From positions 312,001 to 376,000 of the IMG/VR virus record IMGVR_UViG_3300028920_000001: a stretch of 64,000 nt of DNA, one strand, 5' to 3'. The DNA is from a virus. Position numbers and translations under genes: made by a program. A model generated the notes under the pieces. The model did not search any database. It had not been told where the DNA came from and worked only from the letters and a program-made list of their open reading frames with translations. Position 1 is the first letter of the stretch, and the number at the start of each line of letters is the position of its first letter. Positions 8,678-62,364 of the stretch are shown here, piece by piece.

Positions 8678-8683
8678 CCAACA

Positions 8684-15793: not shown

Positions 15794-15794
15794 C

Positions 15795-32289: not shown

Positions 32290-32291
32290 AT

Positions 32292-34102: not shown

Positions 34103-34566
34103 ATCATGATGAATATACAACAGCTGTGGATCAGGGTAAATGGCCATCCGATTCATTAGTTCCTTTAGATGATCCTTTCATTAATGAAAATGGGGTTATT
34201 CAGAATCTTCTTCTTAAGCCTGCAAATAGTTTTACTATCATTCATAGTAAACCATCTAGTATTCGTGCCAATCACTACCATAAGACTGATTGGCATTATT
34301 CATATGTAGTGAGTGGAAGAATTATTTATTTTGAGCGCAAAGTTGGCGATACTATTGTTCCAGAACCACAGTTTTATGAATCTGGAAAAATGTTTTTTAC
34401 TCCACCGATGGTGGAACATGTTATGTATTTTCCTGAACAAACAACTTTTGTGACTATGGCCAAAAATATACGTTCTCATGAAAGTCATGAATCTGATGTT
34501 GTCAGAGTTTCATTTTTAGATTTGGATCAAATACGAGATTTGTGTTGGAAAGCTTTGAGGAAATAA
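34099..34566 (+). CDS. Cupin-fold protein, probable sugar-nucleotide isomerase or epimerase
   Basis: The 155 residues form one cupin barrel. Motif 1 is SIRANHYHKTDWHYSYVVSG (metal-binding HxH and the following His), and motif 2 is KMFFTPPMVEHVMYFPE. In sugar operons such cupins usually act as dTDP-keto-hexose isomerases or epimerases, or less often as regulatory or binding proteins. The exact reaction cannot be read from the sequence. It overlaps the preceding glycosyltransferase gene by four bases. Confidence 0.75.
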   Translation: MNHDEYTTAVDQGKWPSDSLVPLDDPFINENGVIQNLLLKPANSFTIIHSKPSSIRANHYHKTDWHYSYVVSGRIIYFERKVGDTIVPEPQFYESGKMFFTPPMVEHVMYFPEQTTFVTMAKNIRSHESHESDVVRVSFLDLDQIRDLCWKALRK

Positions 34567-34567
34567 T

Positions 34568-35878: not shown

Positions 35879-36905
35879 TATTGATGAAATTGCCACTAGT
35901 TTAAACAGTTTGAGAGATGTTTTCGACGGAAAACGAATTCTCATTACTGGTGGATGTGGATTTTTAGGTCGATATTTTATCGAGACCTTTGTTTTTCTTA
36001 ATAAACACTTTCTTCGGAATCCCTGTGAATTAATTGTTTTAGATAACTTCATTACTTCTGGTGATAAGGGTGAATTACCAGAAACTAAGAACATTGCATT
36101 TATTGAACATGATATAATTAAGCCATTTTATCCAGAAAGACCGGTAGATTTCATTTTGCATGCAGCTGGAATAGCTAGCCCATTTTATTATCGTAAATAT
36201 CCATTAGAAACATTAGCAGTTGCTACTACTGGACTTCAGAATACGCTTGAACTTGCCCAAAAAAGTCCTGGATCAAGGTTACTTTTCTTTAGTTCGAGTG
36301 AGATTTATGGAGATCCAGATTCGAAATGTGTTCCTACTCAAGAAAGTTATCGTGGCAATGTGAGTTGTATCGGACCTCGCGCATGTTATGATGAATCGAA
36401 ACGATTGGGGGAGACTTTAATTGATATTTTTCATCAACAATATGGGGTTCATGCTACTGTAGTACGTCCATTTAATGTATACGGCCCGGGAATGTTGAAA
36501 ACTGATTATCGAGTGTTACCTAATTTTGGAGCTCGAATAAAAGAGGGTAAGCCGCTTCAAATTTATGGAACTGGAGATCAAACCAGAACTTTTTGTTATA
36601 TAACTGATGCTATTCGCGGGTTTTTACAAGTACTGGTTAGTGGTGTACCGGGGGAGCCTTACAATATTGGCAATCCAAGTCCTGAAATTTCCATGATTGA
36701 TTTGGCTTATGAGATTGGAAAGACTTTAGGAAAAGAAGTTAAATTTGATATAGTTGAATATCCTGATTCTTACCCAGCGGATGAACCTAATCGACGTTGT
36801 CCTGATATTACCAAAGCAGCACGTCAAGTTGGGTATGAGCCTTCCATACCTTTGCAAATGGGCTTGAAGAGATTCTTTGATTGGGTTGAAGAGGCATATA
36901 AGTGA
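35859..36905 (+). CDS. SDR sugar-nucleotide enzyme, UDP-glucuronate decarboxylase-like
   Basis: The 348 residues begin with the NAD-binding RILITGGCGFLGRYFIETF. FFSSSEIYGDPDSK holds the catalytic Ser/Glu, and SCIGPRACYDESKRLGETL carries the Tyr-x3-Lys pair. The G-P-R-A-C-Y-D-E-x-K-R segment is closest to UDP-glucuronate decarboxylase (UDP-xylose synthase) as I know it. dTDP-glucose 4,6-dehydratases have a different sequence here. Substrate-binding VRPFNVYGPGM and YNIGNPSPEISM follow. In this operon it would make the activated sugar or a 4-keto intermediate. Confidence 0.85.
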   Translation: MELLKTDIDEIATSLNSLRDVFDGKRILITGGCGFLGRYFIETFVFLNKHFLRNPCELIVLDNFITSGDKGELPETKNIAFIEHDIIKPFYPERPVDFILHAAGIASPFYYRKYPLETLAVATTGLQNTLELAQKSPGSRLLFFSSSEIYGDPDSKCVPTQESYRGNVSCIGPRACYDESKRLGETLIDIFHQQYGVHATVVRPFNVYGPGMLKTDYRVLPNFGARIKEGKPLQIYGTGDQTRTFCYITDAIRGFLQVLVSGVPGEPYNIGNPSPEISMIDLAYEIGKTLGKEVKFDIVEYPDSYPADEPNRRCPDITKAARQVGYEPSIPLQMGLKRFFDWVEEAYK

Positions 36906-37771
36906 GATTCACTCTTGTAGGTTGTGGCGCTTGGGGAAAAAATTACTTAAAAACTGTTAAAACTATTCCAGGTATAGAAATTTCTAATGTAATTAAGCGA
37001 AGCATTCTTTCTGAAGATGCACGTACATTAATGTCGAAATATGGATTAACAATTTCAACTCCAGATGCTTTAGATTATATTAATCCAACTGGAGTTATAA
37101 TTGCTACTCCCCCACAGACACATAAAGATATGGTTATTCCACTTTTACAAAGGAAAATCCCCGTTTTATTGGAAAAACCTGTTGCTCATACTTATGGTGA
37201 TGCAAAAGAAATTTTTGAAGCTGCTAAGGCTACCGGAACCCTTTTGTTAGTGAATAATATTCATTTATTTGCTGACGCGTTTTTGAGTTTAAAAGATAGC
37301 TTAGTTCATCGACCCATCCATATTGTTTCTTGTGGAGGAAATCAGGGTCCATTTCGTGATTATTCTTCATTGTTAGATTACGCTCCTCATGATTTAGCAA
37401 TGTGTTTGTCATTGTTTGATGGGCAAAATCCAGATCAAGTAGAGATAAATAAAATAAACAGACCCAGAGGTGAGACTTATACTATTGCTTTAAAATTTGG
37501 TGATAGTTCTGCTGAGCTTGTGGTTGGGAATGGCATGACTGGAAAGCGTCGATATTTTGAAGTAACACAAGGTAGAAATAAGATTGTTTATGATGATTTG
37601 GCTTATTCAAAATTAATCGTAAATGGCATAGGTACGATGAAAACTCAAGAACCTCCATTAACTCGAGTGATTCAAACATTTGCGAAATCTATTATTGATA
37701 ACAATCGTGATTGGAGGTTTGACTATGAATTAAATCTGAGAATTATGAAGATTATTCAACAAGGACTATGA
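36902..37771 (+). CDS. Gfo/Idh/MocA-family sugar oxidoreductase
   Basis: A GTG start overlaps the SDR stop (GTGA). The 289 residues have the Rossmann nucleotide site FTLVGCGAWGKNYLKTVK, the GVIIATPPQTHKDM strand and LLEKPVAHTYGDA, which carries the family's catalytic-region E-K-P. YAPHDLAMCLSLF provides the later conserved Asp/His pair. The protein is shorter than the usual 320-370 residues, mainly at the C-terminus. It is probably a keto-sugar reductase completing the operon's modified sugar. It is the last plus-strand gene before the minus-strand pair. Confidence 0.87.
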   Translation: MRFTLVGCGAWGKNYLKTVKTIPGIEISNVIKRSILSEDARTLMSKYGLTISTPDALDYINPTGVIIATPPQTHKDMVIPLLQRKIPVLLEKPVAHTYGDAKEIFEAAKATGTLLLVNNIHLFADAFLSLKDSLVHRPIHIVSCGGNQGPFRDYSSLLDYAPHDLAMCLSLFDGQNPDQVEINKINRPRGETYTIALKFGDSSAELVVGNGMTGKRRYFEVTQGRNKIVYDDLAYSKLIVNGIGTMKTQEPPLTRVIQTFAKSIIDNNRDWRFDYELNLRIMKIIQQGL

Positions 37772-37772
37772 A

Positions 37773-38297
37773 TTAAGTAGTCATTATATCTTCAATCTGT
37801 TTTGTATGCGTGACATCTATTGTTTTTTCCCATCTTTGCCAATAAGATGGGAGAACGTGTCTTAGCCAATGTTCTTTATCATAATAAGCTGGTTCAATTT
37901 CTAGTATATAAAATAAGTGATGCGCTGCATCAATGGCTTCTTTACCGGAAGCAGTTTTAAGTAAATGAATGGTTGTTGAAATTTCATATGGATCAATAGT
38001 CAACTTGGGAAGGTTTTTAATTACGTGATGAGGACTTTTACAAAACCAATTTTTTTCATAGACTCTTACCTGAGCTAAATAATTTCCACCATTTGATACT
38101 GCAAATGCAGATGAGTTGTAAACATGTAGCGTGTTTTGAGGTTTAATCCATATTTCTTTTTCAATTCTGATAGTCATTCCATCTTGATTAAAGATAAGAT
38201 AAATCCAAGCTGGAGATCTAAATTTAGTACTCCTACATTTAGTGATTTCTTCAATCTTAATTCTGAAAGTATTAACTTGGTTCCAATCAGTATCCAT
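37773..38297 (-). CDS. Hypothetical protein
   Basis: The ATG with GGGAG nine bases upstream gives 174 residues (MDTDWNQVNTFRI); a longer frame starts at 38330. A beta-rich N-terminal half (SPAWIYLIFNQDGMTIRIEK, AVSNGGNYLAQVRVYEKNWF) is followed by a helical half (TASGKEAIDAAHHLFYILEI). No catalytic motif is seen. It overlaps the upstream ligase-like gene by 11 bases, so the two are co-expressed. It may assist that enzyme; family not recognised. Confidence 0.5.
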   Translation of the reverse strand: MDTDWNQVNTFRIKIEEITKCRSTKFRSPAWIYLIFNQDGMTIRIEKEIWIKPQNTLHVYNSSAFAVSNGGNYLAQVRVYEKNWFCKSPHHVIKNLPKLTIDPYEISTTIHLLKTASGKEAIDAAHHLFYILEIEPAYYDKEHWLRHVLPSYWQRWEKTIDVTHTKQIEDIMTT

Positions 38298-38937
38298 TGA
38301 GATCAGGCTCCCAGCCTTCCATTCCATCAAACAGAATTTTTAGCCAATCCGGGTGCTTGGTTGATCGACTGCAGTGATCACGTCGAACGGAGCCATTCTT
38401 CTTAAGAACTACTCCATGTATGAATCCATGTTTGGAGTTTCCGGCTTTTCTCATTTCGATTGCTTCTCGATTAATTCGTTCGCATTCTTCCAATGATGCT
38501 TCGAGTATTTCAACTTGTTTAATGCTTGGACATTCTTCTTTCATTAAACTACCGAGAATTTCCCGGCGTTTTTCGATTGGTTCTTTACTTAAATCAGTCT
38601 GTCCGATCCGGATGATATCCCATAGAGTAATCCGACACTCTCCGGGTTCACATTTATGCCAGCCTCCTTTCTTTTTCTGGGTCCAGATTTCTCCGTCAAA
38701 TACTGTTCCCTTTGGAGCTTGAAGAGCTGCTAATTGATCCATCAAATCCGACGGAGCTTGAATCTTCTTCTTTTGGCGGGTAAATAATTTAGGAGTTCCG
38801 TTTAAAATATTTATGATACGCCATCCATCTAGTTTAGTTTCCATGGTATAATTTGAAGTATCAATTGTTTTAAAGACAGCCTTAGTAGTTCGGACTGGCT
38901 TGAAGGGATACATCCACCAGGAAAGAGTATTGAGCAT
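38287..38937 (-). CDS. Minimal ATP-dependent DNA ligase-like adenylation domain
   Basis: The 216-residue protein has the nucleotidyltransferase motifs in order: motif I TMETKLDGWRI (K-x-D-G-x-R type, with Trp before Arg), motif III GTVFDGEIW, a motif IV-like FIHGVVLKKNG and a motif V-like DWLKILF. Covalent AMP transfer through the motif I Lys is expected. The whole protein is only the adenylation domain; there is no OB-fold. In motif IV the usual Glu is His (HGVVLKK), which may weaken metal binding. It could be a small nick-sealing ligase, an RNA ligase or a degenerate copy. Confidence 0.72.
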   Translation of the reverse strand: MLNTLSWWMYPFKPVRTTKAVFKTIDTSNYTMETKLDGWRIINILNGTPKLFTRQKKKIQAPSDLMDQLAALQAPKGTVFDGEIWTQKKKGGWHKCEPGECRITLWDIIRIGQTDLSKEPIEKRREILGSLMKEECPSIKQVEILEASLEECERINREAIEMRKAGNSKHGFIHGVVLKKNGSVRRDHCSRSTKHPDWLKILFDGMEGWEPDLNGY

Positions 38938-40347: not shown

Positions 40348-41802
40348 ATGAAGAAGGAATATTACGAAGCCCATAAAGAAGAGATTAAACGTAAGGCTCG
40401 AGAACGATATAAGAAAAATCGGGCACGAATTTTAAATCAAAAGAATGAACGATACACTAGAGAGCGAGATAATATTTTAACTCGTAGGCGTAAAGCTTGG
40501 AAAGAAAACTCTGAAATTAAGAAAAACCATGATAAATACCACCGTCAGCTCAAAAATAAATGTTATGAGATTTTAGGTGGTAAATGTGTCCGATGTGGAG
40601 AGGCTAATCATGATTTACTGTCCATTGATCATATAAACGAAGATGGGGCTCAAGAAAGAAAGTCTCTTACTTTAGTTAAACTTCGGTCTAATATTGTAAA
40701 TGGTGTAAATCGGGAGAATTATCAACTTCTTTGTTTCAATTGCAATCTGAAGAAGCACCTGAATTATGAAGAACGATTTTTATTGATTGGGAGAGATAAA
40801 TACTGTCCTACTTGTCGCTTGTCTAAGGATGAATCTCAATTCAAGAAAGATAAATTGTATGAAGATGGTTATTATTATGAATGTCGATTTTGTGTTCAGT
40901 CTAGAGAGTTAGAAGTTAAAATTAAGGTATTTAATTTATTAGGAAAATCTCAATGTAATTGCGGCATCAGTGACGTTGATGTTCTTACTGTTGATCATAT
41001 TGAAAAGATTGGGAAGAAAAGAAAATGGCTAGGTAGTTCTTTATATAGAAAGATTTTACAAGGAGCTTTGAATGCTCAGAATTATCAAGTATTATGTTTG
41101 AACTGCAACATTTTGAAGAGTCTTCAAAATGGAGATAAACAGCATGCGACTAATCTGAAAATTGGTTCTTATATTACTGAGGTTGATTTTGAAGAACCTG
41201 TGACCAAAACCACTTTGGAGTATGACTTAGTTAATTTTGATTTTGAAGATATTATAATTCAGAATATTGATAGGGAAAAATCAGTCGTATTTTTAGAAAA
41301 TTATCACTACATTGGATTTGGAAGATCTGGATTTGGTGCGTATGGGGTATTCTTAGGTGATAAATTAATTGCAGTTGTTAAATTCGCTCCCCCGGTTCGA
41401 CAAAAAGTGGCTAGTTCTATTGGATATGAATCTAATAAAATTTTTGAATTAGATCGATTTTGTATCCATCCTGCCTACCAGAAGAAAAACTTTGCCTCTT
41501 TTCTTTTGTCTCGAGTTGTTAAATTGGTAAAACGAGATTATTCAGACATCAAATGTTTGGTTTCATTTGCTGATCCACGGTATGGGCATGATGGGACAAT
41601 TTATAAGGCTGCGAATTGGAAGTTCGTGAGGAAAACTGCTTATAGTTATGCTTATGAGAATGGGAAAGGTGAAGAGATAAATAAGAAAACTCTCTATAAT
41701 TGGTCAAAGGTTCGAGGGATGACTGAGAAAGAAGGGGTGGAACAACTATGTTTGAAGAAGATTAAGTTACCTCGAAAATTGAAATTTGTGTATGAATTGT
41801 AA
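40348..41802 (+). CDS. Double-HNH nuclease fused to a Mom-like domain
   Basis: The 484 residues begin with a very basic helical region (RKARERYKKNRARILNQKNE). First HNH: CVRCGEANHDLLSIDHINED ... QLLCFNCNLKKHLN. Then a zinc-knuckle segment (CPTCRLSKDES, CRFC). Second HNH: CNCGISDVDVLTVDHIEKIG ... QVLCLNCNILKSLQ. The last 170 residues are the same domain as in the gene at 10031: FELDRFCIHPAYQKKNFASF, KCLVSFADPRYGHDGTIYKA, NKKTLYNWSKVRGMTEKEGV. That domain resembles Mu Mom. So two unrelated nucleases carry one common C-terminal module. It sits between two non-homing genes and is a probable mobile intergenic element. Confidence 0.75.
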   Translation: MKKEYYEAHKEEIKRKARERYKKNRARILNQKNERYTRERDNILTRRRKAWKENSEIKKNHDKYHRQLKNKCYEILGGKCVRCGEANHDLLSIDHINEDGAQERKSLTLVKLRSNIVNGVNRENYQLLCFNCNLKKHLNYEERFLLIGRDKYCPTCRLSKDESQFKKDKLYEDGYYYECRFCVQSRELEVKIKVFNLLGKSQCNCGISDVDVLTVDHIEKIGKKRKWLGSSLYRKILQGALNAQNYQVLCLNCNILKSLQNGDKQHATNLKIGSYITEVDFEEPVTKTTLEYDLVNFDFEDIIIQNIDREKSVVFLENYHYIGFGRSGFGAYGVFLGDKLIAVVKFAPPVRQKVASSIGYESNKIFELDRFCIHPAYQKKNFASFLLSRVVKLVKRDYSDIKCLVSFADPRYGHDGTIYKAANWKFVRKTAYSYAYENGKGEEINKKTLYNWSKVRGMTEKEGVEQLCLKKIKLPRKLKFVYEL

Positions 41803-46941: not shown

Positions 46942-47934
46942 ATGGCTAAAGATGTAGTAGGAGTAGGTCTTGATTGTGGCACCATGAATTTTGTTGCCGC
47001 TAGAAAAGCGGATGGAAGTATTGGTATTACTCAAATTAGAGATGCTTTTCTTGATTTACCGCTTGAGCACAAGAGAATGCTCAGATTGTCTGAAACTAGT
47101 TATGTAGAGATGGGTGACCGATTATTGGTTCTCGGAGATGAAGCACTAGAAACAGCCAATTTATTTAATCGAGAAGCTCGTCGGCCAATGATTAACGGAA
47201 TGATTTCTCCTGGTGAAATTGATGCTCAGGAAGTTATCTCGATCATGATCGAGAAAGTTTTAGGTAAACCTAAGAAAGATGAAAAATGTTGTTTTTCGGT
47301 TCCGGCTACTGCCATTGATGTTACTGGTTCTGATGTTACTTATCACAAATTGATTTTAGAGAAAATACTAAAAGAAATTGGATATTTGCCTGAACCAATT
47401 AATGAAGCTCAAGCCGTGGTTTTTTCCGAAGCACCTAAAGAGAAATTCTCAGGTGTAGGCATTTCTTATGGTGCTGGAATGACCAATGTCTGTCTGTCCT
47501 ATAATGCTATGAGTGCTCTTGAATTTTCGTTGGCTAAAGGTGGTGATTGGGTTGATGAATTGGCAGCTAAGGCGGTTAATACTACTAAAGCTAAGATGAC
47601 TGCCGTCAAAGAAAAAGAAATTGATATTAATAATCCTCAGACTCGAGAACAAGAAGCTTTAGTGCTATTTATTCAAACTCTCATTGATAATTCACTTAAT
47701 GGAATAATTGAGCATTTTCATAAAGTGAAAAATGAATTACTGGTTCCTAAACCTATTCCAATTATAGTGAGTGGTGGGACTTCCAAAGCAACTGGTTTCT
47801 TAGACAAATTTAAAGAACGATTTGAAGTTTTGAAGCAAAGATTTCCGATTGAAATTTCTGAAATTCGTGCTGCTCGAGATCCTATGACGGCAGTAGCTAC
47901 TGGATTACTTGTGGTTGCCCAAATGGAGGATTGA
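46942..47934 (+). CDS. Actin-like ATPase (MreB/Hsp70 superfamily)
   Basis: GGAGAG precedes the ATG. The 330 residues show the actin/Hsp70 ATPase core: phosphate-1 loop VGVGLDCGTMNFVAARK (residues about 5-21), phosphate-2-like GVGISYGAGMTNVCLSY with the MreB-type continuation SLAKGGDWVDELA, and the adenosine motif PIIVSGGTSKATGF. ARDPMTAVATGLLV resembles the end of MreB. In phosphate-2 the usual Asp is Tyr (SYGAG), and Met replaces the Thr of GTT, so hydrolysis could be slow. Phage actins are known to position or segregate DNA. Its place among virion genes could instead suggest an assembly chaperone. It might also partner with the J-domain proteins at 56323 and 58645. Confidence 0.8.
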   Translation: MAKDVVGVGLDCGTMNFVAARKADGSIGITQIRDAFLDLPLEHKRMLRLSETSYVEMGDRLLVLGDEALETANLFNREARRPMINGMISPGEIDAQEVISIMIEKVLGKPKKDEKCCFSVPATAIDVTGSDVTYHKLILEKILKEIGYLPEPINEAQAVVFSEAPKEKFSGVGISYGAGMTNVCLSYNAMSALEFSLAKGGDWVDELAAKAVNTTKAKMTAVKEKEIDINNPQTREQEALVLFIQTLIDNSLNGIIEHFHKVKNELLVPKPIPIIVSGGTSKATGFLDKFKERFEVLKQRFPIEISEIRAARDPMTAVATGLLVVAQMED

Positions 47935-51015: not shown

Positions 51016-54000
51016 ATGACAATTGGACCTTTCACGACGTATGCCCCTCCTGGCGTCTACACTCAGACTATTGTTGAGCCAGTCGTTATTCAGCTCCTAG
51101 GAGGGCTGAGGGTTCCGGTATTGATCGGAACGGCCCAAGAGACACTCACTCAGACCGATTTTGAAATGATTCGTGGGTCCAGCAGCGTGGCTGATACCCC
51201 GATCTTCAATGAGGATGTCTCTGGTCGGTGGATTGTTAGTGGGACTAATCAAAATCCTATTATCGGTAGTCAAGATGGGACCCTTTTTAAATTTAAAGTT
51301 CGTAATTATCCGATTGTTGATGGTGATGGTCTTGGTCGTACTACATTTGATGTAACCAAGGTTTCGGTTACTGTTAATGGTGAAGCTACAGTTGTTTCCC
51401 AGGTTGATGGCACTAATGGTGTTATTACCTTATTAACTGCTCCTCAGTCTACCGATACTGTTCTAATCAGTTATTTCTTCCATCGGAAAGATACCCGTAT
51501 CACCGATGACGTTTCTGATCAGGTGACCGAGGACGCAGCGTCCTTGATTGCTCCCAAGGCTGAAACCTACGAGATTACGACTGGTACTAATGATACATTA
51601 ACTGTGTATATTAATGATGCAATTGCATCAAATTCGGTTACTTTGACCGCTGGAATTCGAAGTGCCACAGACATTGCTAATGATATTAATGGAGCAGGCG
51701 TTACTGGGTTGACCGCTACTGTCCATGTTGATAACCAAGGTTTGAATCATCTGCGACTGAATGCCCAAGGCAACATTTTAATCGGTAGTGGTACTGCCAA
51801 TGGTATCCTTGGGTTTAATCCCGGAGATTACACTAATCGTACTCGTGTATTCCGTACGTATCAAGGTCCGATTGTAGATGGTTCTGATGGTGGTATCACT
51901 ACCACTGAACCTTCCAAGGTGACGGTCTTGGTCAATGGAGTCCAGGTAGTTGCATCCGAGGTGGATGGTACCAATCGCTTGGTTACTCTGCCAACTGCTC
52001 CGGTTCCTGGTGCTATTGTCACAATTGAATATTGGTTCAATACTTGGCAGGATACGTTTGATTATCTGCCGAATTCAAATATTGTGACGATGGGCAATGT
52101 GGGTATCTCGCCTGGTCGGCGAGATTATCTGAATGGTCCGGACTTTGTAGTCGTTAATGAAAACGACCAGTCCAAGATTCTGTGGGGCACAGCTTGGCAG
52201 GTTGTTTCTGGTGAGGTCACCGGGTCTACGCCGCTTGATTCCACACAGGTTACCGCCATGTTGGTGGATGACCGAATGTACGCGGTTGAATTAGATCGGT
52301 ATGTAGATACTACTACTAACACAGTATCTTCTACACAATTTGAGCTTCCACTGATCGCCACTACCGGTAATGGACGAGATACGCCGCTTGGTACATCTGT
52401 TTACCAGACTGTGACCAATAGCCGGATTGATCTGCCAACAAATCGTCCTGATTTGGTGATTGTTCATACTGGCAAGACTCCTAGGGATGCCCTTTCTCGG
52501 CCTCCGGTTACGGTTCTCGAGGTTAACATCAGCAATAATACCATAGTTCTTCAGGATACGGTGCCTGCGGACTATAATGCTTATGCCACTTTCTGGTATA
52601 ACCGCACAGTTGATGATAATTACACTTTGACTTGTCAAACACCTGGTGCCAGTGGGATTGGCAAGTTTACGGTTACTTCCGAGCTAAATAACGATGTTAA
52701 TCTTTACAGTGTCATCTTTGGTACTAAGAATGCATTGCCTCAGACAGTGCAATGGCCAAGTGGGGTGGAGAAGATAACTGATGCTATCCATTATGGTGGA
52801 CAGCCTGTGCCCGAGACAGTTACTATCACTTTTGATAGTACGCTGCTTCCAAACACTCATGCGTCGTTCTCGAATGCTCTGCCTGAGCCATACGACCTAT
52901 ATACTACTTATAGTGATCAATTTGGTGGGATTCGGATTGATGGAGCTTCTGCATTCTCTGTTGATTTGAATACGGCGTTCGCTGCTCAGTTGTTAGGTAG
53001 TCCGGTTTCCGGTACTCTGCCGGCAGCTATTACGACAACTGATGAGCTCGTGCTTGAGATTGATGGAGTTATTCTAAATATCAATGAGACGACTGTTACG
53101 GCAGCTGCAGGCACTTGGTCTACCGTTACCACCCTTGCAGGTGTGGTTACTGCCATTAATGCTGTAATTGATGCTGACGTTCAAGTTCATCCTGATGGAT
53201 CTGGCACGTTTGCTTCAACAGCGGCTAATAGTCTGGCTTCCGTAGTTACTTATGGGACTCAGAGCATTCTGAAGATTGCCGGTAGAAATGTTCAAACTTC
53301 TACCAATGGTCTAGAATCTCAGGTTAAGGTTCTGACTCCAACTACTGTTGGTCAGGTTGATATTTCGGCCACTCTTGGTTTCACTCCGAATCAAGAATCC
53401 CTTGGTAGCTGGGATGGTTTGAATCAGCCAGCAGAGATCATTAGTTCGGTTGATGCTCCGTACTTGATTACTGCTAGTGTGGATGATTCTTTCCTGTTCA
53501 ATATTGATGGACAGGATTATCAAGCTACCATTCCGTCTGGTTCGGCGGTGACTCAGGGTCAGGTGGTTGATGCTATTAATGCTGGGTATCTAGACACTGC
53601 TCCTGCTGCTGATCAGGCTACTGCGTTGGCTCAGGCTATTGTAGTGGCGAACTCATTGGCTACTAATTACGGTGGCCATCAGGCTTTGGCTACTTGGCAC
53701 GTATTAGCGGATGCTGCTAATAATGTGACAGCGCCTGTGGCCACTGATTTGTCATCATTGCTTACTTTGTTAGCAGATATTAAGGCCCAGTTCAATGCCC
53801 ATATCATTAATACTGGTGGTGTTTATCATAATGGCTCGACTGATACCACCAATACGATATCAGCAGCTGATCCGACTACTCTGGAAGAAGCTATCAATTT
53901 CATCTGGGTTTTGAAGAATAATTTCAATTCGCACTTGGCGACAGCCGGAACCATCCACCTTTTGGCTGATGCAACCAACGTTGAGACTAATAGTAACTCT

Positions 54001-55731
54001 CAGTTGGTAGCAATTGCTGGTGCAGGTTTGTACGCGAATAAGATTATTCTTAGATCGCGTGTCAATACCATTTCTTCGCGAGTGGCAATTAGTACGTTGG
54101 GGACTGCCAATACGAAGCTCGGGTTTACTGCTGGTGATTCGGCCTCTGTTAATCAACCAACTGCTTCTCGTTTAGCAGCTGCTTTGAATGCTGATGCTAC
54201 TTTTGCTGCAGCGGCAGTGGCATGGCCAGTAACGACCCAGGGTCGTGGCACATTCCTCCAGATTGATTCTCTTTCTGCCGGTATCGGCTCCAGTATCACT
54301 TTCACTAGTGTGACTGGCACGGTCTTTACCACAGATACGGGAATCGGTATTACTCCTGGTGTTAGTGGTGATATCGGTGAGGCAGCCACTGCTGGTTATA
54401 CAGTTTCCTCTTCGAATCCAAATGGATCAAGCGGAACTGGTGTTCCGGGCCAGACTTATACAGATGCTCAGACCGGGCTTCGGTTCACTGTTCTTCCGGC
54501 ATCTGCTGGTGATTACGCTGATGGTGGTTCGTTCACTTTGATTGTGAATTCCACCTTCACTGCTGATGCCTCAATTCCGTCTCGAGCTATTCCGGGCTTG
54601 GAATTCTACGTTTTCAACACCCTGAATGTGGGCGTTGATTCGACAGCTATTCTGAGCACATTTAATAAGGGTGGTTCGGAACCAGCAGTGGGTGACGTTT
54701 ACTACGTCAGCTACAACTACGCTAAGTCGGATATTTCCACTGCCCTATTCCGGGATCTGAAGAAGATTCAGCAGAATTTTGGAGCTCCTACTCCCGAAAA
54801 TCCGCTCAGTCTTGGAGCTCGGTTGGCTCTGTTAAATGGTTCGGTTCTGCTTGGCCTGCGTCAGGTGCTTCGAGCCCCGAATTCAGCTCAAGCTTCTCTG
54901 CAATCATACGCAGATGCTATCAATGAGCAGAAGAAACCAATTGAGGGCAGCGTGAAGCCGGATGTATTGGTTGCTCTAGCAACTGATCCAGAAATCTTCA
55001 GTTTGCTGAATCAGCATGCTGTGTTCATGTCCGCTCCGCGCCAGGAAGGTGAGCGAATTAGCATCGGTGGTGTTGCAGCTGGTACCACCCCGTTGGGTGT
55101 GCGTGCTATTGCTCAAGGTCTGCAATCTGAGTTGTTCATTCTGACTTATCCTGATACTTTCGTAATTTCGGTTACGGATCAGCAGGGTAATACGGTTGAA
55201 CAGCTGATTGATGGCTCGTATGCTGCAGCGGCTTTAGCGGGTAGTGCAACCAATCCGGCTGTAGATGCCGCTACCCCATGGACTCGTCGTCAAGTTCTCG
55301 GGTTCAAGAGGTTGGGCCGCATTCTGGATCCGACTGAAGCTAATCAGGTGGCGGTCAGTGGTGTCAGCATTATTGAGCGAGTCGACACCGGGATGCGAAT
55401 TCGCCACGGGTTGACGACTCGAATTGATAACGTCATTACGCGTACACCGAGCGTGACGTTGACGATTCATTACATCCAGCAGTCTACTCGCCGAACTTTG
55501 GATCCATACATTGGGCAGAAGTTCACGAGCACTCTGATTAAGTCGGTTGAGTCCAAACTGAACGGTATGTTCAGCGGACTTATCGATAAGGAAATTGTAA
55601 CTGAGGTTGGTGGAATTGCGGTGACGATTGATGAAGATGATCCTACTATCATGAGGACGTCTGCCATCTACGTCCCAGTGTTCCCGCTTGAGTATATCGT
55701 TAGTACCTTCCAGGTACGAATTCGGCTCTAA
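51016..55731 (+). CDS. Contractile tail sheath protein (unusually long)
   Basis: GGGAG before the ATG supports the start. The 1571 residues begin YAPPGVYTQTIVEPVVIQLL, a typical sheath opening. The C-terminal 250 residues carry the sheath core: QVLGFKRLGRILDPTEANQV, VSIIERVDTGMRIRHGLTTR, and a last domain with RRTLDPYIGQKFTSTLIKSV and a final strand YIVSTFQVRIRL that donates to the neighbouring subunit. Between them lie many beta-rich inserted domains with repeated patterns (VNGEATVVSQVDGTNGVITL and VNGVQVVASEVDGTNRLVTL). Most phage sheaths have 400-900 residues, so this one has large surface additions. GC content is higher than in the accessory genes, as expected for an abundant protein. Confidence 0.85.
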   Translation: MTIGPFTTYAPPGVYTQTIVEPVVIQLLGGLRVPVLIGTAQETLTQTDFEMIRGSSSVADTPIFNEDVSGRWIVSGTNQNPIIGSQDGTLFKFKVRNYPIVDGDGLGRTTFDVTKVSVTVNGEATVVSQVDGTNGVITLLTAPQSTDTVLISYFFHRKDTRITDDVSDQVTEDAASLIAPKAETYEITTGTNDTLTVYINDAIASNSVTLTAGIRSATDIANDINGAGVTGLTATVHVDNQGLNHLRLNAQGNILIGSGTANGILGFNPGDYTNRTRVFRTYQGPIVDGSDGGITTTEPSKVTVLVNGVQVVASEVDGTNRLVTLPTAPVPGAIVTIEYWFNTWQDTFDYLPNSNIVTMGNVGISPGRRDYLNGPDFVVVNENDQSKILWGTAWQVVSGEVTGSTPLDSTQVTAMLVDDRMYAVELDRYVDTTTNTVSSTQFELPLIATTGNGRDTPLGTSVYQTVTNSRIDLPTNRPDLVIVHTGKTPRDALSRPPVTVLEVNISNNTIVLQDTVPADYNAYATFWYNRTVDDNYTLTCQTPGASGIGKFTVTSELNNDVNLYSVIFGTKNALPQTVQWPSGVEKITDAIHYGGQPVPETVTITFDSTLLPNTHASFSNALPEPYDLYTTYSDQFGGIRIDGASAFSVDLNTAFAAQLLGSPVSGTLPAAITTTDELVLEIDGVILNINETTVTAAAGTWSTVTTLAGVVTAINAVIDADVQVHPDGSGTFASTAANSLASVVTYGTQSILKIAGRNVQTSTNGLESQVKVLTPTTVGQVDISATLGFTPNQESLGSWDGLNQPAEIISSVDAPYLITASVDDSFLFNIDGQDYQATIPSGSAVTQGQVVDAINAGYLDTAPAADQATALAQAIVVANSLATNYGGHQALATWHVLADAANNVTAPVATDLSSLLTLLADIKAQFNAHIINTGGVYHNGSTDTTNTISAADPTTLEEAINFIWVLKNNFNSHLATAGTIHLLADATNVETNSNSQLVAIAGAGLYANKIILRSRVNTISSRVAISTLGTANTKLGFTAGDSASVNQPTASRLAAALNADATFAAAAVAWPVTTQGRGTFLQIDSLSAGIGSSITFTSVTGTVFTTDTGIGITPGVSGDIGEAATAGYTVSSSNPNGSSGTGVPGQTYTDAQTGLRFTVLPASAGDYADGGSFTLIVNSTFTADASIPSRAIPGLEFYVFNTLNVGVDSTAILSTFNKGGSEPAVGDVYYVSYNYAKSDISTALFRDLKKIQQNFGAPTPENPLSLGARLALLNGSVLLGLRQVLRAPNSAQASLQSYADAINEQKKPIEGSVKPDVLVALATDPEIFSLLNQHAVFMSAPRQEGERISIGGVAAGTTPLGVRAIAQGLQSELFILTYPDTFVISVTDQQGNTVEQLIDGSYAAAALAGSATNPAVDAATPWTRRQVLGFKRLGRILDPTEANQVAVSGVSIIERVDTGMRIRHGLTTRIDNVITRTPSVTLTIHYIQQSTRRTLDPYIGQKFTSTLIKSVESKLNGMFSGLIDKEIVTEVGGIAVTIDEDDPTIMRTSAIYVPVFPLEYIVSTFQVRIRL

Positions 55732-55794: not shown

Positions 55795-56322
55795 CTATTT
55801 CCCGCTATTATTCTTGGTAGGCGGAAGCAGGGGCATCGAGTCGATAGCGGCAGTCAAAGCCTTCATTGATTTACGACTCTTGTTGACCTCCCGCTTGACG
55901 TCAGCGCTGAGTTTGTTGACATCTACATTCTTATCTGTGGATTCTAAACTCGCGGCACTGGACTTAACCCGACGACGCTTTCGACGGTGAACAGTACGAG
56001 CCAAATCTTCATCATCAACTGTTGCTCGTACTCCCTCAACTTTATCAAACCAGATTTCCCGGTGATATTTTCGGCTCAGGATTCGGTTGGCACTGGCTAG
56101 AACACTGGAGAGGCGATTTTTGACTTGGTCGCTATCTTCCCCAGGAATTCGGCTCAAGCCGAAGGCGACCTTAGCGATATATCGTTTATCAAAAAAGGCG
56201 AGTGGGAGTTCATCGGCTCCGGTGTTTAAGAACTCGGCAGCTCGTTCGCCATAAGTTCCGGTGTTGTCAGTTTTATAAGATTTTAGAAATTCAGCAGGTG
56301 ATCTTACAGTGCGTTTTGACAT
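55795..56322 (-). CDS. Small winged-helix protein of the J-domain cassette, copy B
   Basis: The 175-residue basic protein begins MSKRTVRSPAEFLKSYKTDN. Residues 60-115 (EDSDQVKNRLSSVLASANRI, LSRKYHREIW, GVRATVDDEDLARTVHRRKR) align with the gene at 58124 (EADSVRACMTRARDLLRKEY, GVGYRATVNDEDKAR). This resembles a helix-turn-helix followed by a wing (OmpR-type GVGYR). The C-terminal part is helical (VKREVNKSRKSMKALTAAID). GGAGA precedes the start and the gene follows one base after the J-domain gene. It is the last gene of the minus-strand operon. Confidence 0.65.
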   Translation of the reverse strand: MSKRTVRSPAEFLKSYKTDNTGTYGERAAEFLNTGADELPLAFFDKRYIAKVAFGLSRIPGEDSDQVKNRLSSVLASANRILSRKYHREIWFDKVEGVRATVDDEDLARTVHRRKRRRVKSSAASLESTDKNVDVNKLSADVKREVNKSRKSMKALTAAIDSMPLLPPTKNNSGK

Positions 56323-57246
56323 TTATTTCTCCATCTGTTCGTTCCAGAGTTCTACGACCTCCCACGCTTCATTTACAGCGTGATATTGTTTAACCAGCTT
56401 GTCACTTCCATTGTTCCGATCCGGATGATACCTTGCGGCCAATCTTTTGTAAACCGATCTGGCTCTTTTAATATCGACTTTATGTCTACCTCTAGGTCTA
56501 GAGATACCGAGGGTTTCGCAGGCGTTACGGATGGCAGTAACAGTAATAGTGTCGGTGTCAGAAGGAGTGAAATCCCGCCTAAGATTTCTAATTTTCTTGA
56601 GAAGATCTTCATAGGTGACGCGGACTTCGTACTCGAAATCTTCAACTAGCCCTCTTCTTACATCAGGTTCAATACCTTCTAATCTTACATTGACGAATGT
56701 ATCTGTTAACGCCTTGATACTGGCGTAAAACATTCGGGCGTTGTCGGCTCTAAGATCTTCAGGATTGATTTCTGGAATTGAAGGTTTTGTTTTTTTAGAT
56801 TTAGGTTTTTTGGGTGGTCGTCTTCGATGAATATACCCGTCTTTATTAGGATAATCTATGTATTTATCTGAAAAATATTCCTCAAGGAATTCTTTTAATT
56901 TGGTAGGATCTCCTTTGGCTTTTTTTCCAAGAACATAAGCTGTAGCCAGGGGCATTTTTCTAACCGCGATGGCATCCCATAGTGGTTTGGCTAGATCCCC
57001 CATTAATAAAATTCCGGCTCTCTTGGCAGGGCCATATGTATTTTTTGCTCCAATTTCTACAAACCATTGACTTCTTCTTAGAGGAGTTTTATCTCCTTTG
57101 TCACGTCGGTTAATGCTATAGAAGGACCAAACTTTTCTTTCAAGTTTAGCTATTTTATATTGATTGGTTGGGATGTCTTTTTCATACTCTTCAAGTAATT
57201 CAAGGATTAGCTCTTCTACATGCTTATCAAGGTTCTGCAGATTCAT
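56323..57246 (-). CDS. J-domain protein of the cassette, copy B
   Basis: The 307 residues are mainly helical. The last 65 form a J domain: RGRHKVDIKRARSVYKRLAA, then RYHPDRNNGSDKLVKQYHAV and NEAWEVVELW, with the HPD tripeptide needed to stimulate Hsp70. The first 240 residues (PTNQYKIAKLERKVWSFYSI, AGILLMGDLAKPLWDAIAV, a Lys/Pro-rich linker near 145-155) align loosely with the gene at 58645, which has the same layout. Unlike DnaJ the J domain is C-terminal, as in many substrate-specific J proteins. It probably recruits host DnaK, or the actin-like ATPase, to a DNA-bound partner (inference). Confidence 0.82.
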   Translation of the reverse strand: MNLQNLDKHVEELILELLEEYEKDIPTNQYKIAKLERKVWSFYSINRRDKGDKTPLRRSQWFVEIGAKNTYGPAKRAGILLMGDLAKPLWDAIAVRKMPLATAYVLGKKAKGDPTKLKEFLEEYFSDKYIDYPNKDGYIHRRRPPKKPKSKKTKPSIPEINPEDLRADNARMFYASIKALTDTFVNVRLEGIEPDVRRGLVEDFEYEVRVTYEDLLKKIRNLRRDFTPSDTDTITVTAIRNACETLGISRPRGRHKVDIKRARSVYKRLAARYHPDRNNGSDKLVKQYHAVNEAWEVVELWNEQMEK

Positions 57247-58117
57247 GTTGCTTTAGGTGCTTCACAACGGTTTCGATCTCTTTGAATAAAGAGTCCTCTT
57301 TTTTCATTTGAGAGGACATTTGATTAATAAGATTCTTACCTCGAGAGTTAAATTCCATTACTTTTGCTAATAATTCTATAACTTGAAGTTGGGTCTTGTT
57401 GTCTACTTTCTTGTTGATTCCGGTGCAGAGTCGCATCAACCCTGCAGTTCGATCTGCACTTGCAGACGAAAGTTCTTGAATTGCGATCAATTTAGTATCA
57501 TATTCTCCGAGGAATTCAAGCTCAGTTTCAATCCCTTGGTTAATTTTGGTGGCAGTGCCGGCAATTTCTTTTAATTGTGATGTTGTGCCGTTTTGAAAGC
57601 TTTCTACTTTTTCTTCGAGTTCTTCAACTTTCTTATAAAGGTTGGTGGAGATTTGAATTAAGGCAGCTACTCCTCTTATTAATTGATCTGCAGTGTTTTC
57701 TTCTTGTTCTTGGGTAACATCAGAACCTACGTTATGAGCTATGACTGGTTCTTCTTCAGGTTTTTCCTTCAGGGGATATTCATTTGGCCAAATTATGTGT
57801 TTGATATAAACAGTATCATTTGCTGCTTTAGTAAGCAATCCAATAGCTTTGTCCTTGTTTCCAATTTCGTAAGTTGTATTTCTAAGTGAACCACTTCTAA
57901 TTGCCAATTCTTCTTCAATCAGGCGACTCATTAATTTGCGCTGCCAGTCTTTTGACATGGCCATCTTGCGCATTTGTGGAACTTCTAAATCTCCGTCACC
58001 TCTTGGAGAGAATAATTCTTTCATTGAAAGCGGGTCCTTTGAACTAATCAGTCTTTCTAAGACTACTCCAGCCCAAAGGACCTTCGCTTCATTCTTATTT
58101 AAGTTACGTGAAACCAC
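57227..58117 (-). CDS. Winged-helix and coiled-coil protein of the cassette, copy B
   Basis: The GTG start gives 296 residues. The N-terminal 95 residues look like a winged-helix DNA-binding domain: PLSMKELFSPRGDGDL, then SKDWQRKLMSRLIEEELAIR and a wing NTTYEIGNKDKAIGLL. This aligns with TASKDWQKGCMYHLAGKGLI in the gene at 59505. Residues 130-296 are long coiled coil (LYKKVEELEEKVESFQNGTT, ELLAKVMEFNSRGKNLINQM). It overlaps the J-domain gene by 20 bases and is probably co-translated with it. It is shorter than its paralogue and lacks a second and third winged-helix-like segment. Confidence 0.7.
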   Translation of the reverse strand: MVSRNLNKNEAKVLWAGVVLERLISSKDPLSMKELFSPRGDGDLEVPQMRKMAMSKDWQRKLMSRLIEEELAIRSGSLRNTTYEIGNKDKAIGLLTKAANDTVYIKHIIWPNEYPLKEKPEEEPVIAHNVGSDVTQEQEENTADQLIRGVAALIQISTNLYKKVEELEEKVESFQNGTTSQLKEIAGTATKINQGIETELEFLGEYDTKLIAIQELSSASADRTAGLMRLCTGINKKVDNKTQLQVIELLAKVMEFNSRGKNLINQMSSQMKKEDSLFKEIETVVKHLKQHESAEP

Positions 58118-58123
58118 GTTCTA

Positions 58124-58648
58124 TTATTCTTTTTCTTCCTGGACTGGAGGCAACAGTTTCTGAATTCGATCATCAGAAATCAGGTTACTGATTTTCTTGA
58201 CATTACGGACGAAGCTACGAAGTTTACGACCTTCAGGATTTGAGGTTGAAATCTTACGGGCATCGATCATGCCGAGGCTATTATCAACACTAACCTTGGC
58301 TGAGGCTAATCGCTTAGTACGGTCAGCTAAATCAAATCGAGCTTTATCTTCATCATTGACAGTGGCACGGTAGCCAACTCCGCGTTGGCAGATATACCCA
58401 CGTTGATATTCTTTGCGTAGAAGATCACGGGCTCGAGTCATACATGCCCGTACGCTATCTGCTTCCTTGGAAGTAGCACGTGGTGTATGATTATAACCAT
58501 TAATGGCTTTTACGATTTCCTGTGCCGGGAAATACTGATACCGCAAATTCTTAGCGGCCCAGTCGAGGAAATGAGCAACACGTTGAGTTAGGCTCATCCC
58601 AGGAAGTGACTGGTAATCCGCTACTGCCGCCTTTCGTTTCTTGGTCAT
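58124..58648 (-). CDS. Small winged-helix protein of the J-domain cassette, copy A
   Basis: AAGGAG before the ATG supports the start. The 174 residues have a helical first part (SLTQRVAHFLDWAAKNLRYQ, YFPAQEIVKAINGYNHTPR). KEADSVRACMTRARDLLRKE then GVGYRATVNDEDKARFDL follows: a probable recognition helix followed by the wing. The C-terminus is helical and basic. It is the paralogue of the gene at 55795 and better fits a complete winged helix. Its start overlaps the J-domain gene stop by four bases. Confidence 0.7.
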   Translation of the reverse strand: MTKKRKAAVADYQSLPGMSLTQRVAHFLDWAAKNLRYQYFPAQEIVKAINGYNHTPRATSKEADSVRACMTRARDLLRKEYQRGYICQRGVGYRATVNDEDKARFDLADRTKRLASAKVSVDNSLGMIDARKISTSNPEGRKLRSFVRNVKKISNLISDDRIQKLLPPVQEEKE

Positions 58649-59508
58649 AGCTTCTCCTTATTCAAGGAATCATTGTATTCCTTGAGAATTTCGTGTGCTC
58701 CTACTGCTTCTTCAAACAAATCCCTAGTCTCTTCATTGCCACCGTGAGCATCAGGATGATACAACCTGGTGAGTCTTTTCATTTGTTTAGTAGCTTGTTT
58801 TAGATCTATTGGTTGATTAATTGGAGGCGAATCAATTTGTAGGATTTTACAAGCGCGAATCAATTTTTTTCGATCTATTGTAGTTCCGAATTTAATTTTG
58901 CTTTTTGCGGCTCGGGCAGCTCTGGATTGCCAACCCATGATTAATGTTTTCAAATCAATTTCAAATTCTCTTAGAAGATTATCTTTTTCAATTTCAAGTA
59001 AATCTCCGAGTTTTCCTTCAAGATGATCAGTGATCATCATTCTGATTTGTGCCCAGAATGGTTTATCTCCGTTTTCTCGAACAATTAAACCAATCCCAGT
59101 TTCAGTTTTTCTTTTAATGATTGGAAATTTTTTCTTAATTTGTTTTCCACTGGGGAGTCGTGCTTCATAGGATTTATTTTCATATTTATTGAATTCAATA
59201 TTTAGTGCTTTTTCAATTGGTTCTCCTCGTCTTTTAGCTGTAGTGATTATTCGATAAATAGTATGAAAAGGCATTCCATTTTCAAGTCTTTCCCAAAGAG
59301 GACTTGATAATCTAGGTGGTAACTTATAAATTGACCGTCGAGTTCGATATTGAATATCAGTGATTCCGAGAGTATGAACGACAGTTTTGGCTGCTCTTTT
59401 ACTGTTTTGGATACCTTTATAATGTTTCCAAAGGGTATACTCGAATTCAGCTTTCTCCTCTTGGGTGGAAAGTTTCTGATATTCTTCCACTAATTGACTC
59501 GTGTTCAT
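58645..59508 (-). CDS. J-domain protein of the cassette, copy A
   Basis: The 287 residues have the same plan as the gene at 56323: N-terminal helical region (YQKLSTQEEKAEFEYTLWKH), a middle section with SSPLWERLENGMPFHTIYRI, and a C-terminal J domain (DLKQATKQMKRLTRLYHPDA, HGGNEETRDLFEEAVGAHEI) with an intact HPD. Overall similarity to copy B is low outside the J domain, so the duplication is old. Both ends overlap neighbouring genes by four bases, indicating tight co-expression in a fixed order. Confidence 0.82.
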   Translation of the reverse strand: MNTSQLVEEYQKLSTQEEKAEFEYTLWKHYKGIQNSKRAAKTVVHTLGITDIQYRTRRSIYKLPPRLSSPLWERLENGMPFHTIYRIITTAKRRGEPIEKALNIEFNKYENKSYEARLPSGKQIKKKFPIIKRKTETGIGLIVRENGDKPFWAQIRMMITDHLEGKLGDLLEIEKDNLLREFEIDLKTLIMGWQSRAARAAKSKIKFGTTIDRKKLIRACKILQIDSPPINQPIDLKQATKQMKRLTRLYHPDAHGGNEETRDLFEEAVGAHEILKEYNDSLNKEKL

Positions 59509-60596
59509 TTCTTGAAAATGCGGGTTTGGACTTTACGGTTAAGTTCAGAATCAAAAATAACTGCTTTAGTACGTTTAAATCCGAATTCTCTTAAAATATT
59601 AGCGATTTCTTTAGCTTCTTGTCCTTTTGGATTTATTTGAAGTTCCAGATAATTGCAAATATCTTTTATACTTACAGCAGATAAATTTTGAACAAAATCA
59701 GCAATATTTTTCCTCAATTCAATTTGTTTCAAATTTGGTTGGGGATAAACTGTATGAACATGAGTGTCATGTTTTTGACTAATTTTTCTGAGTTCAGTTT
59801 CAATTGCTTCTAATCTGGTTGAATGATACTCAAGAATTTGTAAATATTGAACTAGCTTTTCAAGAATTACTAATCCAACATTAGTTTGATCAGATTCTTT
59901 TAATTTTGGTTCTTGCTTTGATTCAAGAGCTACGGAATGTTTAAGTTGCTTGACATTTCTTTTTAGAAATCCAGGTGCAGTTACTCTTTGTGTGTATCGA
60001 TACCATTTAGGGAAAAGTAATTCAACAATTTTTTCGTTATCTGGTTGAATGACGGCTTTACCAACTCGAGCTTTATACTCAACCCATCTGGTCCAGCCTT
60101 TAACTGAACAAAATCCAGTAGCGACAAGCCGTTTCATAAAAGCTGATTGCCAACTTGCTGTTTCTTGAAATAAATCATCCCTTCTAATTGGTTTTCCTTT
60201 AGCAAGTTTTCTTACTACTTTTGTTGCGTCAATAAACTGAGTATGTTGCTCATCAGTTAGGCGTTGGAAAATACTGAGTGCATAAATATTTTCAAAATTG
60301 CTATCTGCAATGGCGGTTCCGCAAATAGCAACCTCTTGTGTAAGAGGATAATGGGATATAATTTGACGAATAGCTTGTTTTTCTTTAATTACATATGTAT
60401 CGGCATTACGTTCAATAAGCCCCTTTCCGGCTAAATGATACATACAGCCCTTTTGCCAATCTTTAGAGGCTGTCTTTTTTCTATTACCGATTCCTATAAA
60501 GATATCCTCGATGGTAACTGGTGCGTCAGTTTTAAGCATTTCTTTTAAGGCATTACGGATAATCTTCTCAAGGGCAGAGAGGGTTTTTTGATCCAT
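59505..60596 (-). CDS. Multi-winged-helix and coiled-coil protein of the cassette, copy A
   Basis: The ATG at 60596 (MDQKTLSALEKIIRNAL) is chosen over a TTG at 60620, giving 363 residues. There are three probable winged-helix segments: near 20-85 (DAPVTIEDIFIGIGNRKKTA, SKDWQKGCMYHLAGKGLIER), near 125-190 (RKLAKGKPIRRDDLFQETAS, SWQSAFMKRLVATGFCSVKG) and near 295-363 (VSIKDICNYLELQINPKGQE). A coiled coil (YLQILEYHSTRLEAIETELR) sits between the second and third. The first resembles the start of the gene at 57227. It is first in the operon and so probably the DNA-recognition component. Confidence 0.72.
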   Translation of the reverse strand: MDQKTLSALEKIIRNALKEMLKTDAPVTIEDIFIGIGNRKKTASKDWQKGCMYHLAGKGLIERNADTYVIKEKQAIRQIISHYPLTQEVAICGTAIADSNFENIYALSIFQRLTDEQHTQFIDATKVVRKLAKGKPIRRDDLFQETASWQSAFMKRLVATGFCSVKGWTRWVEYKARVGKAVIQPDNEKIVELLFPKWYRYTQRVTAPGFLKRNVKQLKHSVALESKQEPKLKESDQTNVGLVILEKLVQYLQILEYHSTRLEAIETELRKISQKHDTHVHTVYPQPNLKQIELRKNIADFVQNLSAVSIKDICNYLELQINPKGQEAKEIANILREFGFKRTKAVIFDSELNRKVQTRIFKK

Positions 60597-61352: not shown

Positions 61353-61759
61353 TTTTAAGGGTTGTTCTTGACAAAATAAATGCGGGGTCACCGCCGGCCG
61401 TCCAATATCAAAAAAATGAAAAGGATAAGTGTCTTATTTCAGTTGATGATAAGACAGCTGCTACACCTTGGTCTAATGTAAAAGATACTACTTTTTCAGT
61501 CCCTTTACATCATTTAGATGCGAATGAAGCTAAACAATTTTTAAAGGATCGATTTGCTTGCTTGAATGAAGATGGTTGTATTATGGTTCCTTATATGAGT
61601 CCTGTAAATGGAGAGGTTGTATTTGGATTAGTATATTATCCTAAAAGAACATTCATGTCATTTGATAACAATCATAATATGGCACAACCATTTGAACCGA
61701 ATGTTTTAGTAGATTATTTAATTAATATTATGCTAGTAGATGAAGTTATGGATAACTAA
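61349..61759 (+). CDS. Hypothetical protein
   Basis: The ATG in the ATGA overlap ([13 protein letters not shown]) is preferred over one five codons upstream, giving 136 residues. Alternating strands and helices ([40 protein letters not shown]) suggest a compact alpha/beta domain. It ends VDEVMDN, echoing the VDEVMKS end of the gene at 60631. It overlaps the convergent collagen-like gene by four bases. Unknown function. Confidence 0.5.
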
Positions 61760-62364
61760 GGATTAGCTAAATCAGTAGTATTTCCAGTATCAGCTCGAGC
61801 CTTCAGTTTTCCATCTCCTGAGTCTGCCCAAACATACCAAGAACCAGTAGGTGGGGTTCCAGGATCAGAAATTGTTGAAAGTTCCAATAATGGACCCAAT
61901 ACTCCGGTAGCCCCTTGAGGTCCTGTAGCACCTATTGGGCCCGTTGGACCTATCGGTCCAGTTACAATTGACCCTGTTATTCCTTGTGGACCTACTGGCC
62001 CTGCTGGTCCAGGTGATCCCTGAGGACCTGCTGGTCCAGGTGGACCGATCGGTCCTTGTATTCCCTGTGGACCTTGGAACTGCTGGATTTGTGGATCTAC
62101 TGTGTTATTCTGAAGGAATCGAATAGTGAAGCCATATTCAAAAATATTAGATACTTGAGTATTTATACTGGTGATGGTGACTTGAGAAATTGACCACTCA
62201 TCAGGAGATAGGCTCAGGGTATTAAATATTTGTCTGTAGTTTTCCGGTTTATTTAGTTCTGTAACAGGATTAGGTAAAATCGCATTTGAGGTTAGGGAAA
62301 CAAAGGCGTTGACTACATTATTATAATTTGAAGTTAGTTTTTCAACGCCTACGTTCGTAGTCAT
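61756..62364 (-). CDS. Short collagen-like virion protein
   Basis: The 202 residues have an N-terminal beta domain ([40 protein letters not shown]), then about 17 Gly-X-Y triplets ([16 protein letters not shown] and following). The triplets are interrupted at GSIVTGPIG, where an extra residue shifts the register. A C-terminal part ([20 protein letters not shown]) resembles the end of some phage fibre domains. This gene is on the opposite strand to the two other collagen-bearing genes and 34 kb away from them. A CTTTAAT box precedes it. Confidence 0.75.

Follow-up and report, generated by a model that had tools for sequence, protein, structure and literature searches.

Two diverged J-domain gene trios in a large uncultured phage: an accessory cassette that may direct host DnaK to a chosen target

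Why does a large phage carry, next to its tail sheath gene, two diverged versions of a three-gene set with a J-domain protein at its centre? We addressed this question for a window of 64,000 nucleotides, bases 312001-376000 of a virus contig 426,960 bases long (IMG/VR record IMGVR_UViG_3300028920_000001, here G000), in which the listing of open reading frames (ORFs) gives the minus-strand gene order A1-B1-C1-A2-B2-C2, i.e. two A-B-C trios, designated type I (A1-B1-C1) and type II (A2-B2-C2). We tentatively propose that the trio is an accessory mobile cassette, encoding a dedicated co-chaperone complex which would recruit host DnaK to a chosen target; by our own estimate this falls somewhat short of an even chance. 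The coordinates that a first-pass annotation, made by a model from the letters, had given for all six ORFs are correct, all six lie on the minus strand, and the A1 start that it gave, ATG 60596, is the likelier one. The features are located in the window as follows.

59505-60596, minus strand: A1, 363 residues; repeated W-motif domains, putatively winged helices, with a coiled-coil segment and an extension at the C-terminus; isoelectric point (pI) 9.6
58645-59508, minus strand: B1, class C-type J-domain protein, 287 residues
59176-59508, minus strand: B1 N-terminal seven-helix domain, residues 1-111; AlphaFold predicted local distance difference test (pLDDT) about 84-94
58648-58872, minus strand: B1 J domain, residues 213-287; HPD at 58750-58758; Pfam DnaJ 5e-5
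58124-58648, minus strand: C1, small basic winged-helix protein (AlphaFold model), 174 residues, pI 10.0
58346-58381, minus strand: C1 signature GVGYRATVNDED, wing and start of the next helix
57227-58117, minus strand: A2, 296 residues, GTG start; one W-motif domain and long coiled coil; pI 5.7
56323-57246, minus strand: B2, J-domain protein, 307 residues
56326-56541, minus strand: B2 J domain, about residues 236-307; HPD at 56419-56427
55795-56322, minus strand: C2, small basic winged-helix protein, 175 residues, pI 10.1; signature EGVRATVDDED

The paired genes are homologous, as the first-pass annotation had assumed, and the failure to align that it had named as a possible refutation did not occur. 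BLASTP aligned B1 with B2 over nearly the full length (E=4e-10) and C1 with C2 at E=2e-10; A1 and A2 reached only E=6e-4, limited to the SKDWQ region. We additionally used leave-one-out profiles, each made from the remaining trios and lacking the protein under test, in which the C profile recovered C1 at 9e-45 and C2 at 1.3e-30, the B profile with the J domain removed recovered B1 at 3.6e-26 and B2 at 2.7e-17, and a hidden Markov model of the A domain recovered A1 at 2.8e-13 and A2 at 5e-7. The worst leave-one-out values overall were 1e-28 for C, 3e-17 for B without its J domain and 1e-5 for A, and outside the trio clusters none of roughly 1,200 ORFs scored below about 0.01 with the A, B or C profiles. 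Since these profiles recover all six proteins, B even in J-less form, the similarity within the pairs is far above chance and independent of the J domain.

The locus had been read as a tandem duplication with two diverged copies, of which the divergence stands and the duplication history is probably wrong. In the B tree, the C tree and the concatenation, type II of G000 joins G021 (98/96 in the concatenation), and type I joins G008, G020 and G023, all of which are contigs of other viruses described below. A sister relationship of the two G000 copies was not rejected by an approximately unbiased (AU) test (p=0.105), and long branches meet, so that the grouping of type II with G021 is a preference and not a proof. 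Whichever tree holds, each copy has diverged by more than one change per site, and the two trios are therefore not the product of a recent duplication. They give the appearance of two ancient lineages housed in one phage, and not of a gene set copied in place.

The trio is present in the same order and tight packing in four further distinct viral lineages. Our search led from relatives found via the tail sheath to a C profile and from there to alignment searches; the C profile returned a B-C pair in G008 (a 273,770-base contig), to which reading of the locus added A. In gene order, the encoded proteins have 524, 309 and 175 residues in G008, 436, 285 and 178 in G020 (182 kb contig), 305, 325 and 197 in G021, which has the near-identical partner G022, and 188, 313 and 188 in G023 (134 kb contig). 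A further contig, L005, holds the end of a type II trio adjoining a sheath gene 95% identical to that of G000. Each B found directly precedes a C, each C found directly follows a B, and gaps within trios range from -44 to +6 bp. In G000 itself, A1/B1 and B1/C1 overlap by 4 bp and A2/B2 by 20 bp, B2 and C2 abut, and C1 and A2 are spaced by 6 bp; since all junctions overlap, abut or leave only 6 bp, the six genes from A1 to C2 could share a single transcript. For A1, a start at ATG 60596 (363 residues) is likelier than one at the upstream TTG 60620 (371 residues). Homologues that never occur together had been named as a second possible refutation; what we find is that A, B and C homologues are confined to trio clusters among the about 1,200 ORFs searched. 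The cluster of G021 extends upstream by a second A-type gene, a 166-residue protein and a protein weakly matching methyltransferases (L067 4695-6085, G021 7890-9280).

Among GenBank phage records, neither C nor the N-terminal part of B found a match, scans of bacterial and archaeal genome contigs (GTDB) with the C alignment gave none either, and further viral scans with B returned no trios besides G008 and L005. From the empty GenBank phage and bacterial/archaeal searches we judge the trio to be rare, and so far it is seen only in uncultured large phages; a three-gene cassette of this form is undescribed. A tblastn match of C to gp011 of Salmonella phage SKML-39 (Agtrevirus), a NUMOD3 homing endonuclease, was rejected, since the profile finds nothing in that genome and the alignment is 16% identical, and matches in Pseudomonas phage Y6 and Agrobacterium phage Atu_ph07 cover the J domain alone.

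The second gene of each trio carries an intact C-terminal J domain, as previously annotated, and HPD is unchanged in each of the seven B proteins. At a permissive E<=1 every one of them matches Pfam DnaJ; against the curated cut-off of 27.8 bits, B2 lies above (33.1) and B1 slightly below (23.7). A profile of the seven proteins matches E. coli DnaJ at 2e-9, and Foldseek aligns the B model to J-domain structures at a probability of about 1. In the AlphaFold model of B1 (pLDDT 77), seven N-terminal helices (3-111) lead into a linker predicted to be disordered, and a pair of long helices precedes the J domain (213-286), in which HPD sits between helices 236-250 and 259-286. In the B proteins, helix II bears a net charge of +1 to +6. 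B lacks the layout of class A and B DnaJ proteins, in which the J domain comes first and is followed by a glycine/phenylalanine-rich region and a zinc finger or C-terminal domain. DnaJ is the sole Pfam family in B, the N-terminal domain giving no Pfam match.

Both dependence on host DnaK and its redirection are known among phages. An Hsp70 encoded by the phage itself was considered as the partner of B and dropped, as none is detectable in the four genomes searched (G000, G008, G001 and G002); host DnaK is therefore the plausible partner. G000 additionally encodes, outside the window, a complete class A DnaJ of 361 residues (contig 37762-38847, minus strand) with J domain, zinc-finger repeats and C-terminal domains, a homologue of which is present in G020. 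Because a complete class A DnaJ is already available and no Hsp70 is detectable, B is probably a specialised co-chaperone. A 106-residue J-domain fragment is also encoded at G000 47070-47390.

For the third gene, the winged helix proposed by the first-pass annotation agrees with the AlphaFold model and with a constant basic charge (pI about 10). The C1 model (mean pLDDT 82) comprises helices 20-34, 42-50 and 61-81, strands 85-88 and 92-95 and a long helix 99-126, with pLDDT about 89-95 over residues 21-100 and lower values beyond residue 100; as modelled, C is a winged helix of H-H-H-beta-wing-beta topology. C is basic in all six trios (pI 9.9-10.2), which is only suggestive of DNA binding. 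Its signature is G(V/Y/I)RAT(V/F)(D/N)DxD, with R-A-T and both Asp positions invariant in seven C proteins. Foldseek searches of the PDB with C1 gave weak matches, none below 0.2, several of them winged-helix regulators; in the viral structure library BFVD the best match was a protein of Gordonia phage Trine (E=4.7e-4), and an OmpR/PhoB-type phage protein reached E=0.16. The predicted fold of C resembles small phage winged-helix proteins of the OmpR/PhoB type, to which no sequence similarity was found, and C differs from them by its RATV(D/N)DxD signature and the long C-terminal helix. We know of no J-protein partner of such proteins.

A is the most divergent member: between type I of G000 and G008 it scores only 29 bits, against 116 bits for B and 127 bits for C. 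It contains one to three copies of a W-containing domain, located in A1 at residues 19-97 and 130-211, and a C-terminal heptad-rich coiled-coil segment. From their sequence, the W-motif domains are putative winged helices; A gave no family match in Pfam or PHROGs searches.

The genomic surroundings bear on what the trio may do. In G000, the six-gene block is flanked by the tail sheath gene (51016-55731, plus strand) and by small plus-strand genes from 60631. G000, G020 and G021 share a syntenic tail region, in which the trio sits at different places: just past the sheath on the minus strand in G000 (slot 1 of the sheath-to-tube interval), about 4.4 kb past the sheath, after three shared genes and on the plus strand, in G020 (slot 2), and upstream of two genes preceding the tube in G021. 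In G008 it is distant from the tail genes, and G023 has few other genes in common with the other carriers. Relatives with the same sheath and tube genes hold other cargo or homing endonucleases in these slots, and more than ten of them lack the trio at that place. A profile search likewise did not find it in LR745208 (485 kb) or in the complete genomes of Tunturi_5 and phage G; absence from incomplete contigs counts as weak evidence here. Since the slots vary, homing endonucleases adjoin and searches did not find it in most relatives, the trio looks like accessory, laterally moving cargo.

Selection was assessed on a single pair, type II of G000 against L005, in which the divergent B2 stretch ends at the contig end. 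The ratio of nonsynonymous to synonymous changes per site (dN/dS) is 0.037 for C2, 0.078 for the C-terminal part of B2, 0.096 for the sheath and 0.49 for the visible N-terminal part of B2 (66 codons, linker included). C is thus clearly under purifying selection, and part of B's N-terminal half changes fast. A recombination breakpoint inside B2 was rejected, as dS is similar on both sides and dN differs about eightfold. For C2 and the greater part of B2, dS is 0.8-0.97 (0.41 when the J domain is taken by itself), compared with 0.27 for the sheath. The cassette appears to have followed its own history.

Some further genes of the region should be mentioned. The sheath protein is unusually large (1571 residues; the annotated sheath gene of phage G has 1740 bp), with relatives in phage G, Tunturi_5 and 35 IMG/VR loci. 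HNH/homing-endonuclease proteins which also match a Mom-like DNA modification family, apparently as fusions, are encoded at window positions 10031-11518 and 40348-41802 and at G000 377186-378739, and members of this family adjoin cargo slots. Collagen-like proteins with matches to tail fibre families lie at 61756-62364 and 25438-27783 of the window, glycosyltransferase and nucleotide-sugar epimerase genes at 29878-36905 suggest a sugar modification cluster, and 18217-25434 is a single ORF of 2405 residues.

As an example of what such a trio might do, the first-pass annotation had named remodelling of a replication or transcription complex through host DnaK; for the phage's own complex, this would be in the manner of lambda replication. 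The combination of a J domain with a predicted DNA-binding winged helix would suit this role, as would the G023 trio, which lies near a terminase and an RNA polymerase beta'-like gene. However, that polymerase gene is found in G023 only and was rejected as a shared trio partner, no replication or transcription neighbour is common across lineages, and such a core function is a poor fit for cargo that lies next to tail genes in slots of varying content and that was not detected in LR745208, Tunturi_5 or phage G. The earlier proposal is thus not borne out, and we regard it as unlikely. The beta'-like gene of G023, a phage with a GpA-type terminase, has a NADFDGD motif and belongs to an open frame of 2097 residues located near the trio (G023 (L074) 13927-16452; contig about 92930-93343).

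A little less probable still is that B alone captures DnaK as a decoy or re-director and thereby shifts the heat-shock or quality-control state of the host, with A and C regulating the operon. The precedent is Rki of phage RB43, whose J domain binds host DnaK, aiding phage growth, and which stabilises sigma32 through DnaK (PMC3486835), and a constantly basic winged-helix protein such as C could regulate its own operon. Yet the N-terminal half of B is conserved across lineages and never occurs without A and C. Rki and B are alike as phage J proteins acting, in the case of B presumptively, on host DnaK, accessory rather than strictly essential and encoded by phage-specific genes. They differ in that the J domain of Rki is N-terminal (HPD at residue 38, H38) and followed by an unrelated C-terminal domain, whereas that of B occupies residues 213-287 of 287, and in that Rki does not require the adjacent ORF058w for its function, whereas every B found belongs to a trio. 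Rki is the sole experimentally characterised phage J protein in the literature searched, which comprised openly accessible papers.

We consider it improbable that B and DnaK serve as a virion assembly chaperone, helping to fold or assemble either the outsized tail sheath or other tail proteins encoded nearby. The position of the trio within the sheath-to-tube interval in G000, L005 and G020 and the sheath length of 1571 residues speak for this role, but the trio of G000 lies on the strand opposite to the sheath, that of G008 is far from tail genes, the relatives mentioned above keep the same sheath and tube genes without a trio there, and C is a predicted winged-helix protein. Least probable is that the phage carries the cassette for defence, for superinfection exclusion or as a toxin-like system, in which A would sense an invader and B with DnaK would trigger or restrain an effector: cargo slots with homing endonucleases, paired diverged copies and a fast-changing A are in line with it, but Pfam, PHROGs and PADLOC searches revealed no enzymatic or toxic domain. 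Membership in known anti-phage defence systems was rejected, as PADLOC models gave no match at E<=0.1 for eight proteins; this library covers defence and not counter-defence, so that the negative is neutral with respect to the latter.

We return to the dedicated co-chaperone complex. That the three proteins form a complex, recruit DnaK and bind DNA, and what kind of target they act on, is inferred, and we propose a model in which the C-terminal J domain of B would engage host DnaK, and C, the N-terminal domain of B and the fast-changing A would choose and hold a target. This would most likely be a complex of the host or of a defence system bound to DNA, and DnaK would then remodel or sequester it. 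C, and perhaps the N-terminal domain of B, would bind DNA or nucleoprotein, with A as the adaptor to the target, and the pair of long-separated types in one phage would be directed at two targets. Given the accessory nature of the trio, we prefer, with modest confidence, a role in host takeover or counter-defence to a core one in replication or transcription.

A more specific version appears doubtful to us, namely a mobile three-protein machine that loads host Hsp70 onto nucleoprotein targets, composed of a DNA-binding J protein in which a KorB-like domain is fused to the C-terminal J domain, a winged-helix clamp and a rapidly re-targeted adaptor, with two independent versions in one phage. 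Its KorB-like element derives from the B model, for which Foldseek lists the DNA-binding domain of KorB (1r71) at a probability of 0.80 (E=2.1) and, at 0.2-0.6, several structures of ParB, Spo0J and Noc; E exceeds 1 for all of them. The predicted structure of the B N-terminus thus weakly resembles the helical DNA-binding domain of KorB, ParB and Noc, with no significant sequence match, and we treat a KorB-like domain as a lead only.

Several observations weigh against the proposed complex and its DNA-bound target. Neither Pfam KorB nor HTH_ParB is matched by the N-terminus of B at E<=10, and in hhalign the alignment of B with a ParB profile, although in the expected helix-turn-helix register, has a score reached by 7 of 100 shuffles; these sequence tests of membership in the KorB/ParB family are thus negative. 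A is acidic in five of the six trios, A1 alone being basic. In G021, the gene at the A position is not detectably homologous to A, and the true A homologue (592 residues) lies upstream in the same cluster. Finally, only six trios are known, on five distinct contigs, all of them uncultured.

Known J-protein systems offer partial parallels. CbpA is a DNA-binding J protein, composed of an N-terminal J domain and chaperone C-terminal domains. Its J domain (curved DNA-binding protein in the PDB) matches the B profile at about 2e-6; B differs by its helical N-terminal domain and the position of the J domain at the C-terminus. The AtcJABC operon of Shewanella pairs a J protein with dedicated partners, and the chain AtcJ-AtcC-AtcB has been shown physically (PMC6715715). 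As described, and as in the trio, a dedicated class C J protein is encoded beside partners without known domains. In contrast to the trio, this is a bacterial cold-adaptation operon of four genes, the partners of which are not described as DNA-binding in PMC6715715, and AtcJ is a short protein encoded by the first gene, with a 21-residue C-terminal tail binding AtcC, whereas B is the second of three and ends in its J domain. Among phages, large aquatic 'moraphages' carry DnaJ and DnaK, for which counter-defence is discussed by the authors (PMC12619734).

The presence of a co-conserved, mobile J-domain trio beside a complete DnaJ suggests that the host chaperone is put to a dedicated and not a general use. 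Should Hsp70 prove to be recruited in a DNA-targeted manner, phages would have a novel means of dismantling or blocking nucleoprotein complexes, and the trio would be a candidate tool of counter-defence or host takeover.

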